A DNA stretch of 64,000 bases from Scytonematopsis contorta HA4267-MV1 (GTDB lineage: Bacteria > Cyanobacteriota > Cyanobacteriia > Cyanobacteriales > Nostocaceae): the NCBI GenBank assembly GCA_019359035.1, contig JAHHIC010000050.1:62001-126000 (forward strand), given 5' to 3'. Below, one piece after another: positions 2,808 through 8,587 of the stretch; position 1 is the stretch's first letter; each line of letters opens with the position of its first letter. The notes below the pieces were generated by a model. The model saw nothing but the letters and a program-made list of their open reading frames with translations, did not search any database and was not told the origin of the DNA. A program made the position numbers and the translations under genes.

Positions 2808-3241
2808 TATCTATATGTCCTACGTAAAATTTCTAACTCTTGCAAATTTTGCTGAGCTTCGCTAATTTTTCCCATGACGTTGTTTCTAGCTTGCTCCAAG
2901 CCATATTCATTTACTCTAACTTTTAAAGATGACTGGTAATTATCTACTGCTGCGCGAAATAATTTGTATGCTAATTCGTAATCTTTGCCTTCCAATGCCT
3001 TATAACCTTGCATCTTATTGCTATCACCAACAGATTCCAAGTGATAGAATGTTTCCTCGGTAGTTGTACAGCTATTACATTCATAAGTTTGTACTACCAT
3101 GATGCGAGAGGTTGCTGATGGCCGTGAACCGAATTGTGAACTAAATGTTTTTGCTTCAACAGCTTTCGCACTTAACCCGAAGGAATTAGGTAATAAAAAT
3201 CCTAGAATTGAAGCCCCAATACACCACAATTTGCTTGACAT
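2807..3241 (-). CDS. Hypothetical secreted protein
   Basis: A 144-residue protein with an N-terminal hydrophobic segment (about residues 5-30, ending near AKAVEA) that looks like a Sec signal peptide. The mature part has a CNSC motif near residue 55 and a helical charged second half (residues 75-140: LAYKLFRAAVDNY, a TPR-like helix). I do not recognise a family. Its start ATG lies at 3239-3241, and the 160-base gap to the divergent epimerase gene would hold both promoters. Confidence 0.6.
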   Translation of the reverse strand: MSSKLWCIGASILGFLLPNSFGLSAKAVEAKTFSSQFGSRPSATSRIMVVQTYECNSCTTTEETFYHLESVGDSNKMQGYKALEGKDYELAYKLFRAAVDNYQSSLKVRVNEYGLEQARNNVMGKISEAQQNLQELEILRRTYR

Positions 3242-3426
3242 ATGGTATGTAACAATTTGTTAAATACACTACATTTGTCATTATAATTCGATTTTAAAGA
3301 TTTACCGCGTTTTCTTCGTAGTTACTCGTAACTATACGTTTCCGTGCTTACTTATCTTTTGATGTTTTCTAAGTAATAATAGTTTACTCTAACCGTTTTG
3401 ACATGCAAGGAAGGGGGAGAAAATAT

Positions 3427-4593
3427 ATGGAGCAGGATTTTAAAGCGCTAGCAGAACTGTACAAAAATGCGCTTCTGAAAGATGTACTCCCGTTTTGGGA
3501 AAAAAACTCAGTTGACTGGGAAAAAGGGGGATACTTTACATGCCTTAATCGAGAAGGTAAAGTTTATGACACCGACAAATTTATCTGGCTACAAAATCGC
3601 CAGGTGTGGATGTTTTCTACGTTGTACAATCAGCTAGAAAAACGCGAACAATGGCTTTCTATCGCTCGTAATGGAGCTAATTTTCTCGCTGAACATGGTC
3701 GAGATAATGAAGGTAACTGGTATTTTGCTCTCACCCGTGAAGGTCAGCCACTGGTAGAACCTTATAATATATTTTCTGATTGTTTTGCTGCAATGGCTTT
3801 TAGTCAATACGCACTCGCTTCTGGGGATGAACAAGCTAAGGAAGTGGCGATGCAGGCTTATAATAATGTTTTACGTCGTAAAGATAATCCCAAAGGCAAA
3901 TATAACAAAACTTATGCCGGTACTCGTCCTATGAAATCGTTGGCTGTACCGATGATTTTAGCCAATCTCACTTTGGAGATGGAATGGTTGCTACCGAAGG
4001 AAACCCTGGAAAGCGTATTAAATATGACTGTTCGAGAAGTAATGACCGATTTTCTCGACCAAGAACGGGGATTAATGTATGAAAATATTGCTCCTGATAG
4101 TTCCCATTTGGATTGTTTTGAAGGACGATTAATTAACCCTGGTCATGGTATCGAAGCGATGTGGTTTATTATGGATATTGCTCGCCGCAGTAACGATACT
4201 AAAACGATAAACCAAGCTGTTGATGTAGTATTAAATATCCTCGATTTTGCTTGGGATAAAGAGTATGGCGGGTTGTATTATTTTATGGATGCAGAAGGTC
4301 ATCCTCCACAGCAATTGGAATGGGACCAAAAACTCTGGTGGGTACATTTAGAGTCTTTAGTTGCACTGGCTATGGGTTACCGTTTAACCGGACGAGAAAA
4401 GTCTTGGGAATGGTATAAAAAATTGCACGATTATTCTTGGTCTCACTTTGCAGATGCACAATACGGTGAGTGGTTTGGATATCTCAATCGTCGTGGGGAA
4501 GTACTGTTAAACCTTAAGGGTGGTAAATGGAAGGGCTGTTTTCATGTACCACGCGCATTGTATCTTTGTTGGCAACAGTTTGAGAAGTTTTAG
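3427..4593 (+). CDS. N-acylglucosamine 2-epimerase (AGE, renin-binding-protein family)
   Basis: Interconverts N-acetylglucosamine and N-acetylmannosamine. From ATG 3427 the protein has 388 residues, the length known for cyanobacterial AGE enzymes; the frame is open from 3403, but a strong purine-rich site (GGAAGGGGGAG) sits just before 3427. Visible features are an alpha/alpha-barrel protein rich in Trp and Tyr, [11 protein letters not shown] in the middle (conserved active-site His) and KGCFHVPR near the end (second conserved His). Downstream on the same strand, beyond one opposing gene, lies a kinase resembling N-acetylhexosamine 1-kinase, so amino-sugar salvage is plausible. Confidence 0.9.
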
Positions 4594-4764
4594 CTCTGAT
4601 TATTGATTGTGGGATGGCATTTTAGCCCGTCCTCTGCTCTAATTATTGATTGTGGGATAGGCTGGAAGCCTGTCCTCTGCTCTGATTATTGATTGTGGGA
4701 TAGGCTGGAAGCCTGTCCTCTGCTCTGATTATTGATTGTGGGATAGGCTGGAAGCCTGTCCTCT
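4593..4764. repeat. Four tandem 43-bp repeats
   Basis: Units begin at 4593, 4636, 4679 and 4722 with exact 43-base spacing. Each starts GCTCTGATTATTGATTGTGG and ends in GCCTGTCCTCT; units 2-4 carry the small palindrome AGGCTGGAAGCCT. The first unit is more diverged. The array follows the epimerase stop codon directly and is followed by another dispersed repeat (GGGCGGGCAAGGATGCCCAC, 4769-4788). Confidence 0.9.
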
Positions 4765-4824
4765 GCTCTGGGCGGGCAAGGATGCCCACCCCACAAGAAA
4801 TTAGTATTTATTTTTTGGGAGTCC

Positions 4825-7233
4825 TTAAATCTCCACAAATATACCACTGCGGGCAAACTGTTCCTCATCAGGGGTGAAATATGGAGCTTGGTCTACTAGG
4901 TCATCGTCAAAGTAGTACGTATCTTGCAAGAAGTTACCACGAACGACAGCTTCTTCCAATTCATGGATATAATCTTGTGCCAGATGGCAAGCCTCTTGAA
5001 TACCCTGCATATCATCCTTCTCCAACAGCTTTTGCAATGTTGCTCTTACCCCTGCTAGTCGTGATGCTGGTTTGAGCATACCATAAAGACGATAGATACG
5101 GTCAACGGCTATACTGACATGATTGAGCGCTTTGGCTCGTGCAAGTTCAGAATCAAGGCTAGGCCAATAGCGGGTGGTGTAGAAGGCTTTTTCATCCTTT
5201 TGATACCAATCTTCTGAGCGAGCAATGGATGAGGAGACTGTATTGTGCAGTTTCCAAAAAAATAAGCGCAGTGAAGTACCATCCACCACAGTAGACAGTT
5301 TAGCATCCATTGATACATCAAACTCAGCAATCCGCTGGTCGCGTCCAAGCAAAAGATACTCTACAGGGTACATATCCACCTCCTTGTTTTGCACGACATA
5401 AGCGTTGAGGTGATGGCGGCAGTAAGGACAGGGATACATACTAGCAAAAAGTTTGAAGAAATCCCTAAAACATTCTACCAGGGCTTTCTGTTCTTCTATT
5501 GTCTTAGTACATACAATTTCTGGGGTGGTGTGGAAGAAACGCCACACTGCTGGACCAATGTAGTATGGGAAACTAACACGCATCTGGGCGTCTTTGACAT
5601 GGCTTCGATTTAAATATATGTCGATGAATGAGACGTACTGCGAAAGTTCACCTGACTCCCGGCCAAACTCTTGGCGTTCGCGCCGTTTCTGTACTCCATT
5701 CAAGTAGTAGTGTGTCAATCGCCATGCTTGCTTGAGCATCAGCTTCTGTTTTGGAGTACATTTGAGAAAGAACTCTGCAACATCTGCTCCATAGCGTTTA
5801 AACTCTCCTATTGCTTGGGTAGACTCGTACCAATTGTTTAAAGCCGCCTCGTCTGGTACTGTATTACTATGAATATCTTCGGCGGTGTTGACACTAAACG
5901 CCACTAGCAGCTTTGGCATAAACTCCTCATACCAATATGCGACTGGCATCATTGCACCATCTATTTCTTCGGAAGCGTCTGTGAGGATAACGCGGTTCCA
6001 GTTGTTAAGATACTCTTTGGGGTCTCCTGCCGATTTGGCTGGTGGTGCAGCCATTTCCGAACTAATATCCATCTGTCTGAGACGGTTGAGTTCGTTAATA
6101 GCAAGAACGCCTTCGGCGATATCACGCAAGCCCAAATGTTTCTTCTTCATTGTTATTGCGAACTCAACACCCGCCGCAAATTTTTCTTTGACAGTGGCAG
6201 ACTTTGTACGTACCTCAAGCATTTTTTTTGCTTCTGCCTGCATTTGGGGCGTTTTGTCTAGCGTTTGCCAGTTCTCTATCCGCGACTCTAGTCGAGCATA
6301 CTCATCCGTGATTGATTCCACTACTGCATCTAGCAAAGGATAGCAAGCTGAGGGTATTAAATCTAACCCTTTGTAAAGTTTCATCGCCGTCTTTACAAAC
6401 ATTACAAAGTCAGTAATTCTATAAGGTAGGTTTCTCACGCGCAGGTGGGTTTCGTGGTTGGCGGAAAAACTCTCGCGGAAGCAACGGTAAGCGGCTCCTT
6501 GAATAAGACGAAACAGACCTATTTGCATTTGTAGACGGGATGTACCGCGCTTTGTCTCGCCCTGTGGGTGTTGAGAAAGTAATTCTTTTAACCGTGTGAC
6601 TTCCGTATCTATTTCGCTCGGTGCTGCTTGGGGAGTCGATTCTGTGGTGGCTCTGGCTACTTGGGGGGTGGCGGCAACTGTACTATCGGTAGGAGCCGAA
6701 GTGCTGGTTGAAGTTGCGGTTGGCTTGAACTCGCGAGTAGGAGAAATTGGCGAGTCTTTATAACCTGTTTTTACTTCTGATTCCTCTGGCACCAGGCTGC
6801 AAAATTCCTCAAAGTCAATTGAGGCATCCCCATCACCATCAACTTCTTGCACTATATCATCCAGTTCTTTGTCTGTTAACCCAAACTGACTCATCACACC
6901 GCGCAATTCTTGGGCTGTAATTAGACCACTACCGTCTTCATCAAACACGCTGAATGCTAACTTGAGACGGCTTTTTCGGTCTCCTTTTTGGGCTATCAAA
7001 AGCGCTTTGAACTCCTCAAAATCGATATTACCTGATAAGTCAACGTCCACTTCCTTAATCATGTCGCGCAGTTCTGTCTCATTTGGACTCTGACCTAATG
7101 AATGCATTACCTGGCCTAGTTCCTGGGCTGAGATACAACCGCTAGTGTCCCCATCAAATACTTTGAACGCTTCCCATAATTTTTGCACTTCTTGTTCGCT
7201 CAGTGCTGTTTTTTCCAATTCTGTAGATGTCAT
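4825..7233 (-). CDS. Calmodulin-like EF-hand protein fused to an Erv/ALR-type sulfhydryl oxidase-like domain
   Basis: About 802 residues; ATG 7233 has GGAAGGAA six bases upstream (a TTG precedes it in frame). Residues 10-150 hold four EF-hands in calmodulin order, with loops near 28-39, 64-75, 99-110 and 133-144 and calmodulin-like linkers (ELGQVMHSLGQSPNETEL). A Thr/Ser/Pro-rich linker (160-205) and a long helical region follow. Around 560-670 the pattern is WRFFH, then YPCPYC (CxxC near 603-606), then FFWKLHNTV (His-Asn near 664-665), matching the Trp/His, redox CxxC and HNxVN elements of FAD-dependent Erv/ALR thiol oxidases. The CxxC-HN spacing is longer than usual. No signal peptide is visible. 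Calcium-controlled thiol oxidation is an inference. Confidence 0.75.
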   Translation of the reverse strand: MTSTELEKTALSEQEVQKLWEAFKVFDGDTSGCISAQELGQVMHSLGQSPNETELRDMIKEVDVDLSGNIDFEEFKALLIAQKGDRKSRLKLAFSVFDEDGSGLITAQELRGVMSQFGLTDKELDDIVQEVDGDGDASIDFEEFCSLVPEESEVKTGYKDSPISPTREFKPTATSTSTSAPTDSTVAATPQVARATTESTPQAAPSEIDTEVTRLKELLSQHPQGETKRGTSRLQMQIGLFRLIQGAAYRCFRESFSANHETHLRVRNLPYRITDFVMFVKTAMKLYKGLDLIPSACYPLLDAVVESITDEYARLESRIENWQTLDKTPQMQAEAKKMLEVRTKSATVKEKFAAGVEFAITMKKKHLGLRDIAEGVLAINELNRLRQMDISSEMAAPPAKSAGDPKEYLNNWNRVILTDASEEIDGAMMPVAYWYEEFMPKLLVAFSVNTAEDIHSNTVPDEAALNNWYESTQAIGEFKRYGADVAEFFLKCTPKQKLMLKQAWRLTHYYLNGVQKRRERQEFGRESGELSQYVSFIDIYLNRSHVKDAQMRVSFPYYIGPAVWRFFHTTPEIVCTKTIEEQKALVECFRDFFKLFASMYPCPYCRHHLNAYVVQNKEVDMYPVEYLLLGRDQRIAEFDVSMDAKLSTVVDGTSLRLFFWKLHNTVSSSIARSEDWYQKDEKAFYTTRYWPSLDSELARAKALNHVSIAVDRIYRLYGMLKPASRLAGVRATLQKLLEKDDMQGIQEACHLAQDYIHELEEAVVRGNFLQDTYYFDDDLVDQAPYFTPDEEQFARSGIFVEI

Positions 7234-7456
7234 CAATATTTCCTTCCAACATATTGGTTAACAATTAACCAATACACTAATACACGATATAAAAACATTT
7301 AAGATAACTAAGTATTTTTTTAACACTTATCCTATATTATCTGGCTTGCGATTAAGATAAATCGACTGATTTATACATCACAAAAGTAAAACATGCGCTA
7401 CCATATCCCCTATTGCTTAGTGTAATTGCGAGGGGAGTAGCATAAAATCAACAAAC

Positions 7457-8587
7457 ATGACGGAAAATCTCACGGAAAATCTTCAAATACTGGGCACGGA
7501 TAACCTTATTGCCATAGCCAATCAATTCGCCCTTCAAGGTAAAATTATAGACGTTCGAGCTTTTGGGAGTGGTAATATTAACGACACCTTCCTAGTAACT
7601 CTCGACTCTTCTAAGGATAATAATTTTATCTTGCAACGTATTAACACTCAGGTATTTCGTCAACCGGATATGGTGATGAACAATATGCGTATTTTTACAG
7701 AGCATATTCAAAAAAGATTACAAACTACTCCTCTCGAACGTCGCTGGGAAGTACCTCGCGTACTGTTGACTGAGGATGCTGAAAACCATTTGCAAGATGC
7801 TGAAGGGTCTTTTTGGCGAGCGATTAGTTTTATTAAAGACTCGCAGTCCTTTGATGTTATGCACGATACCGAACATGCCAAAGAAATTGGTTATGCCCTC
7901 GGTATGTTCCATAACCTCATCAGCGACTTGCAAAGCGAAAAACTCGCCGATACCCTCGAAGGGTTTCATATTACACCCCTTTACATACGACACTATGAAG
8001 AAGTCGCAGCTAAAGCCAGTCAAGAGCAATCTAGCGAGGTCAATTATTGCTCACAATTTGTTGAAAGTCGTAAAACTTGGGCACATGTTTTAGAAAATGC
8101 TAAAGCAGAAGGTCGGCTACCACTACGACTGATGCATGGCGACCCTAAAATTAATAACGTAATGTTTGATACTGCAACTGGGAAAGCTGTCAGTGTGATA
8201 GACTTAGACACTGTTAAGCCCGGTCTGGTACATTATGATATTGGTGATTGCCTGCGGTCGGGTTGCAATCCTCTTGGCGAAGAAACAGATGAATGGGAAA
8301 GGGTTCATTTTGATACTGACTTGTGTCAAGGTATTTTACAGGGTTACCTTTCTGTAGCAAAAGAATTTCTCACAGAAAACGACTACGCTTACATCTACGA
8401 CGCAATTAGACTCATCACCTTTGAGTTGGGACTTCGGTTTTTTGCAGACTATTTAGCGGGAAATGTCTACTTCAAAGTAAAAAACCCTGAACATAACCTT
8501 AAAAGGGCACTAGTTCAGTTTAAGTTAACCGAGAGCATTGAATCTCAGGAAACTACTATTCGCAATATTATCCAAGATATCAAGTAA
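7457..8587 (+). CDS. APH-fold sugar kinase resembling N-acetylhexosamine 1-kinase (NahK)
   Basis: 376 residues of the aminoglycoside-phosphotransferase fold. It contains GSGNINDTF (glycine-rich nucleotide region, about residue 38), FILQRINTQVF, the catalytic loop LMHGDPKINNVMFD (HGD..N) and VIDLDTVKPG (second metal Asp). The tail GLRFFADYLAGNVYFKV is strongly reminiscent of NahK, which makes N-acetylhexosamine-1-phosphate. The next gene starts 9 bases after the stop, so the two are probably one operon. The nearby N-acylglucosamine 2-epimerase supports an amino-sugar substrate. Choline/homoserine kinases share the fold and are the alternative. Confidence 0.75.
   Translation: MTENLTENLQILGTDNLIAIANQFALQGKIIDVRAFGSGNINDTFLVTLDSSKDNNFILQRINTQVFRQPDMVMNNMRIFTEHIQKRLQTTPLERRWEVPRVLLTEDAENHLQDAEGSFWRAISFIKDSQSFDVMHDTEHAKEIGYALGMFHNLISDLQSEKLADTLEGFHITPLYIRHYEEVAAKASQEQSSEVNYCSQFVESRKTWAHVLENAKAEGRLPLRLMHGDPKINNVMFDTATGKAVSVIDLDTVKPGLVHYDIGDCLRSGCNPLGEETDEWERVHFDTDLCQGILQGYLSVAKEFLTENDYAYIYDAIRLITFELGLRFFADYLAGNVYFKVKNPEHNLKRALVQFKLTESIESQETTIRNIIQDIK

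Follow-up and report, generated by a model that had tools for sequence, protein, structure and literature searches.

A Calmodulin-Like Module Fused to an Erv/ALR-Type Oxidase Domain Suggests Calcium-Controlled Disulfide Chemistry in Cyanobacteria

Sulfhydryl oxidases are usually regarded as eukaryotic, compartment-bound enzymes. The signature set of the Erv/ALR type consists of a WxxxH motif, a CxxC motif and a His-Asn pair. QSOX and Erv1 have second cysteine pairs, with a structural C-x16-C and a shuttle pair in Erv1/ALR, and QSOX carries secretory targeting. Calcium signalling in bacteria has, to our knowledge, few clear effectors. Here we analyze a 64,000-nucleotide stretch of contig JAHHIC010000050.1 of the cyanobacterium Scytonematopsis contorta HA4267-MV1 (the window), in which one gene (4825..7233, minus strand) encodes an 802-residue protein that joins a calmodulin-like module to an Erv/ALR-type oxidase domain. 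In many filamentous cyanobacteria, a calmodulin-grade Ca2+ sensor and a putative disulfide generator, the latter of a type known from plants and animals, are thereby combined in a single, apparently cytosolic protein, and the fusion suggests calcium-controlled disulfide chemistry in bacteria.

An initial annotation, made from the sequence alone, had proposed a calmodulin-like N-terminus with four EF-hands, and our analysis bears this out. The module covers residues 11-148 (6790..7203, minus strand, as for all parts of the gene given below). Pfam places PF00036 on four stretches (E 3.5e-26) and also finds PF13499 (E 1.5e-25), both above cut-off, and a sequence search of the PDB matched residues 11-148 to calmodulins with ~122 bits. 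Among the 50 Foldseek matches listed, identity to solved calmodulins is 43-50% over ~140 residues, and the N-lobe of the predicted structure superposes on the calmodulin N-lobe of 3uct (Z 13.3, 72 residues, 1.3 Å). In the window protein, each of the four 12-residue loops fits the canonical ligand pattern as written by us: loop 1 at residues 27-38 (7120..7155), loop 2 at 63-74 (7012..7047), loop 3 at 98-109 (6907..6942) and loop 4 at 132-143 (6805..6840). Unlike calmodulin, the module is fused to an enzyme, and its aligned part is four residues shorter, the central linker and the stretch between hands 3 and 4 each lacking two. A match to XopAW (NF041410) was rejected, as it reached 57.3 bits against a curated cut-off of 120 and covered residues 12-222 only. 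In Scytonema sp. NIES-4073, a separate open reading frame (ORF) of 108 amino acids (L041:2846-3172) lies ~5 kb ahead of the complete gene; it is 74% identical to residues 1-89 and represents the first EF-hand pair on its own.

The initial annotation had also named Trp/His, CxxC and His-Asn elements of an Erv/ALR-type oxidase in the C-terminal half, and all of them are present, in register with Erv1/ALR and Erv2. Within this domain (residues 550-700; 5134..5586), PF04777 (Evr1_Alr) matches residues 562-618 with an E value of 3e-9 and 37.6 bits, compared with a cut-off of 27.6. The same family was matched in 32/32 members of our alignment A1 at E values up to 0.1 and lies above cut-off in six of six further members; no unrelated Pfam family claims the C-terminal half. 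A profile made from residues 535-715 of 17 members was searched against the PDB, and 13 of the 14 rows returned are Erv/ALR-type sulfhydryl oxidases, the remaining one being a weak match to WDR24. Erv1 (2hj3) is the top match at 5.1e-6; 4e0h and 3w4y, also Erv1, follow near 2e-5, Erv2 at 1.6e-4 and ALR at 2.4e-3. The WxxxH motif lies at residues 564-568 (5530..5544), the redox motif CPYC at 602-605 (5419..5430) and the His-Asn pair at 663-664 (5242..5247), with HNTV of the family aligned onto HNTVN of 2hj3. W564, H568, C602, C605, H663 and N664 are invariant in all 32 members of alignment A2, which includes the window protein, and in the protein of Gemmobacter aquarius (WP_159082576.1), i.e., in 33 proteins. 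The four-helix, FAD-binding bundle of the superfamily is present as a prediction, with model helices at 561-574, 579-598, 603-614 and 652-673. A chance occurrence of the domain matches is excluded. Judged by sequence, the fused architecture is almost certainly genuine, and the protein is likely to act as a flavin adenine dinucleotide (FAD)-dependent thiol oxidase.

The fusion had been described as one that was not recognized. This stands for the literature, since neither the calmodulin fusion nor a QSOX-like core in such a protein (see below) is described in the open-licence PubMed Central titles and abstract openings among the matches listed; the Gemmobacter plasmid record already names its member 'ERV1/ALR-related protein' (WP_159082576.1). 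The fusion is no one-off, and a search of other genomes found an established family, with full-length relatives in cyanobacteria, in a Hyphomicrobiales metagenome-assembled genome (MAG) and on a Gemmobacter plasmid. Eight of the 60 nearest genomes (that of S. contorta included) carry the core, one of them, G018, with a gene split by an insertion. A scan of GTDB contigs gave 37 loci, 36 cyanobacterial and one from the Hyphomicrobiales MAG; one (L044) is ended by a contig end, and the frames are otherwise open. In a separate search of 386 cyanobacterial genomes, 15 had the core in one frame. An apparent fusion of two genes by a frameshift or an assembly error can be dismissed with near certainty, as it is refuted by the same architecture recurring without inner stops in the eight relatives (one insertion-split), the 37 GTDB loci and the 15 genomes. 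Compared with the initial annotation, our analysis adds a middle domain of ~300 residues (229-534) and the conservation of the whole architecture.

How well is the calcium-binding part preserved within this family? We defined a main clade of 28 members, namely, alignment A2 minus L048, L061, L062 and L064. Four canonical loops are present in 25 of the 28, and L008, L039 and L060 have three. Conservation in the main clade is 0.945 at the ligand positions versus 0.802 at the module's other positions, a level reached by 2 of 10000 random draws of 20 positions. Median ratios of nonsynonymous to synonymous substitution rates (dN/dS; usable pairs out of 378, main clade) are as follows: EF module, 0.10 (167 pairs); linker, 0.38 (222); middle domain, 0.085 (187); Erv part, 0.05 (133), the lowest of all parts; tail, 0.14 (206). 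The linker (residues 155-228; 6550..6771), which is variable and Ser/Thr/Pro rich, has a predicted local distance difference test score (pLDDT) of <50 for residues 160-207 in the model. In another reading, the EF module would be no switch at all, being instead a constitutive, Ca2+-stabilized structural or docking arm, with the rate of the oxidase set by thiols and oxygen only. The length and poor order of the linker in the model make a coupling to the core less than obvious, and in small-genome cyanobacteria and in proteobacteria the core persists although the EF-hands are degenerate. Still, the main-clade ligand positions are better conserved than the other positions of the module, and four loops in 25/28 members are what sensors have, while a purely structural arm would not require all of them; we therefore regard the non-switch arm as rather unlikely and lean toward Ca2+ modulation of the oxidase, given the position of the module, the conservation of its ligands and the fusion itself.

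The members outside the main clade weigh against a calcium sensor as an obligatory part of the enzyme. L048, L061 and L062 have one canonical loop each and L064 has none, and the EF-hands of the Gemmobacter protein are degenerate, with loop 4 alone looking canonical by eye. EF-hand profiles match 32/32 members of alignment A1, L048 and Gemmobacter included, and match L062 and L064 weakly; L061 is without an EF-hand match at E <= 0.1 and keeps the oxidase core, which rules out that every member has the fusion. Since these five proteins retain the core and have one canonical EF loop or none, a calcium sensor is not needed for the oxidase core to exist. The predicted calcium ligands are thus a conserved feature of the main cyanobacterial clade, whereas small-genome cyanobacteria and proteobacteria have lost most of them. 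Decay from an ancestor with EF-hands is tentatively favoured over a gain in one clade. L061-L064 come from genomes of 2.3-3.0 Mb, a size that suggests picocyanobacteria; of these, L061, L062 and L064 offer a natural, nearly calcium-free version for comparison (L063, from the same search, is unscored). We also considered an internal calmodulin target at the basic, largely invariant residues ~504-525 and rejected it; these residues are equally invariant when the EF-degenerate members are included and are more likely an element of the core.

The cysteines raise the question of how electrons would enter the oxidase. C602 and C605 are the only universal cysteines, and C297 (29/32), C492 (28/32) and C749 (28/32) are common. 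In contrast to QSOX and Erv1, the aligned members share no further cysteine pair, and the C-x16-C and the shuttle pair of Erv1/ALR in the narrow sense are not present. In L062 and L064, a single cysteine exists outside CPYC, so a built-in shuttle disulfide is not a constant feature of the family. Furthermore, the family has HNTVS instead of the canonical HNxVN, with Ser at position 667 in 31 of the 32 A2 members and Asn in one. Both features count against the oxidase reading. They would fit a protein that makes no disulfides, in which an Erv-like core acts as a flavoprotein sensor or electron transfer partner and the redox state of CPYC is passed on to the Ca2+-dependent, target-binding arm; in addition, no conserved neighbour was seen as a possible partner at the loci examined. 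Such a redox sensor appears quite improbable to us, because none of the WxxxH/CxxC/HN residues varies, which is what one would expect of an active oxidase, and an oxidase lacking a shuttle could draw electrons from a separate carrier. Electrons would reach such an oxidase either from substrates in direct contact with CPYC or through a separate carrier, for instance thioredoxin or glutathione.

Between the linker and the Erv domain lies a middle helical domain (residues 229-534; 5632..6549) without a sequence family. Against Pfam it gave weak, inconsistent rows only (best E 0.0016, in 2/17 members) and against PDB sequences no credible match (best E 0.094). An AlphaFold model of residues 228-802 (pLDDT 76.8, predicted TM score 0.83) was compared with the 372 chains ranked highest by Foldseek, a preselection in which the lack of other folds proves nothing. 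The pseudo-Erv/Erv fragment of human QSOX1 (3lli) came first, with a Z score of 11.8 and a root mean square deviation of 4.7 over 245 of 251 residues at 14% identity, and mouse QSOX1 (3t59) followed with a Z score of 11.4 and 229 aligned residues; the next row had a Z score of 3.8. According to a published study, the QSOX region between the thioredoxin and Erv domains is a pseudo-Erv domain with an Erv fold (PMC3616962). We conclude, as a matter of fold prediction and not of sequence proof, that the middle domain takes the role of the pseudo-Erv domain, and the core resembles the pseudo-Erv/Erv pair of QSOX more than a lone Erv domain. Several points weigh against this likeness. Foldseek alone found no PDB match for the core at E <= 0.001; the AlphaFold models have middling confidence (pLDDT 71.6 and 76.8, from 32 aligned rows); and a Z score of 11.8 alone proves little, because helical models without relatives can reach a best Z near 14 with this aligner and values under ~13 call for caution. 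The weight of the comparison lies in its coverage, in the gap to the next row and in the independent Erv match. A duplicated Erv domain recognizable by sequence was rejected (hhalign comparison of the middle-domain and Erv-domain profiles: probability 0.1 on the percent scale, E 0.5). The predicted core matches a QSOX sulfhydryl oxidase fragment, and neither outcome that the initial annotation had named as refuting it, the lack of an Erv/ALR fold or a strong C-terminal hit to an unrelated family, occurred. After the Erv domain, a C-terminal helical extension (residues 701-802; 4828..5133) has model helices at 710-738 and 742-766.

The protein is thus, by its predicted features, a member of the Erv/ALR superfamily and not a QSOX. 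Its predicted core superposes on human and mouse QSOX1 and has the same order, a helix-rich pseudo-Erv part followed by Erv, which suggests a QSOX-like construction with thioredoxin replaced by a calmodulin-like module. In contrast to QSOX, it has EF-hands at its N-terminus and no thioredoxin family among the Pfam matches at E <= 1, no hydrophobic targeting segment and no second universal CxxC, and the similarity is limited to 14% identity with a middle domain that lacks a sequence-level match. Erv1/ALR and Erv2 (PF04777, matched above the Pfam cut-off) share the signature residues; here, the domain is embedded in 802 residues. The Gemmobacter protein is a member of the family, with 37% identity across 92% of the query, and differs in its degenerate EF-hands. 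Among predicted viral structures, the core matched A0A5K0UAY3 of Yasminevirus GU-2018 (E 5.5e-18, TM score 0.56 by query, 735 columns, 19% identity; next row, 0.44), a protein twice as long as the core. The entry (1140 amino acids) is named 'Histidine kinase', a name that may be incomplete or wrong. The core is therefore likely to be wider than bacteria. This giant-virus relative is one of predicted fold only, and a viral origin recognizable by sequence was rejected, as scans of IMG/VR (46, 24 and 2 pattern matches) and of the phage collection gave no relative.

The family is patchily distributed. One of 72,556 plasmid records (Gemmobacter aquarius) and none of 50,697 phage records contained a relative. 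PF04777 was found in 11/292 cyanobacterial genomes, all 11 times inside loci of this family (including a broken copy in G209), so that no other cyanobacterial Erv/ALR protein was seen in this sample. For Pseudomonadota, PF04777 was found in 1/299 genomes, the full profile in 1/398 and the Erv profile in 1/385 of the class, each time in the search centre itself. All PF04777 hits in the cyanobacterial and pseudomonadote samples thus belonged to this family. The rarity in bacteria that the initial annotation had noted thus holds in our samples. A published article reports PF04777 in Nostocales, Oscillatoriophycideae, Rhizobiales, Rhodobacterales, Pirellula, Verrucomicrobiaceae and Euryarchaeota (PMC10598087); our genome searches covered cyanobacteria and Pseudomonadota.

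A core tree of 36 rows (L061 dropped), made by a quick method that left several forks open and with long branches flagged, mixes orders: Oscillatoriales rows group with Iningainema, Tychonema is placed among the Nostocales, and Nostoc falls into two clades that stand apart. Together with the patchy presence and the unrelated neighbours, this points to horizontal transfer and loss of the family. Broken or relic copies fit gain and loss as well. In G209 (L088, G209:C3:6051500-6055200), regions corresponding to residues ~6-196 and 523-790 nearly adjoin and contain an internal stop, and two of the 386 genomes have C-terminal scraps only (G168:C1:123041-123172 and G410:C202:42164-42241); the other rows of that search are EF-hand matches elsewhere. 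In G018 (L087, G018:C1:1430000-1437000, ~2916-5095), an insertion of ~2.2 kb interrupts the gene within EF loop 1 and carries an ORF of 468 amino acids that is transposase-like by appearance; the remaining frame is open, and Rfam gave no match at the insertion.

In S. contorta, the gene reads from an ATG at 7233 to a stop codon at 4825-4827, with an in-frame TTG at 7236 ahead of the ATG; full-length relatives agree with this ORF, and the plus-strand reading of the interval has 37 stops. The genome (10.66 Mb, 109 contigs) has a single copy, and the only two matches to PF13499 EF-hand pairs at E <= 0.001 in it both lie in the 802-residue protein. The gene is isolated, the adjoining ORFs of at least 110 codons lying 220 and 231 bases off on the opposite strand. 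These encode an N-acetylglucosamine 2-epimerase (PF07221) and an APH-type phosphotransferase (PF01636), at 3403-4593 and 7457-8587, which together could serve in amino-sugar salvage. A conserved operon was rejected, since these neighbours stand beside 0/45 other loci (E 1e-8; flanks of ~1.5 to 12 kb, some ended by contig ends). An all-against-all comparison of neighbour ORFs, from which five duplicate loci had been excluded, gave links mostly within a close Nostoc clade and scattered common families such as histidine kinases. An AGE epimerase near the Gemmobacter gene is without a match to the window epimerase at E 1e-8 and was taken as coincidence. PADLOC found no match to anti-phage defence at E 0.01.

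The initial annotation had left open whether the protein is cytosolic or exported. Hydropathy, the only measure applied and no dedicated predictor, showed neither a signal peptide nor a membrane segment (top 19-residue mean 1.16; hydrophilic N-terminus), so export is disfavoured and the protein is most likely cytosolic. Two papers report Erv1 working in the cytoplasm of E. coli (PMC3022669, PMC2946281), and a cytosolic oxidase of this type is therefore feasible. Overall, the protein is probably a single-chain, soluble, most likely cytosolic, calcium-modulated, FAD-dependent sulfhydryl oxidase. From Erv biochemistry and the invariant residues, we infer FAD binding, oxidase activity and a path from thiol via CPYC and FAD to O2: the CPYC of the Erv domain, beside FAD, would take two electrons from thiols, and these would be passed on in the cytosol to O2, yielding H2O2, or to another acceptor. 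The middle pseudo-Erv half might complete the two-fold Erv 'dimer' within one chain. The calmodulin-like arm on its poorly ordered linker would most likely switch or target the oxidase, and upon a rise in Ca2+ it may either clear access to CPYC or recruit a thiol substrate. We tentatively hypothesize that Ca2+-dependent capture of a target presents the target's thiols directly to the FAD-proximal CPYC, with calmodulin in the place of the thioredoxin of a QSOX-type oxidase.

In summary, the calcium control of bacterial disulfide formation can now be posed as a question about one protein. A predicted core of two QSOX-like parts that occurs outside eukaryotes and, at the level of predicted fold, in a giant virus also bears on the origin of QSOX. 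If target capture by the calmodulin-like arm operates as hypothesized, a calcium rise would be written into cytosolic disulfides and H2O2, and the protein would be the first calcium-gated sulfhydryl oxidase, as far as the open-licence PubMed Central matches listed go.

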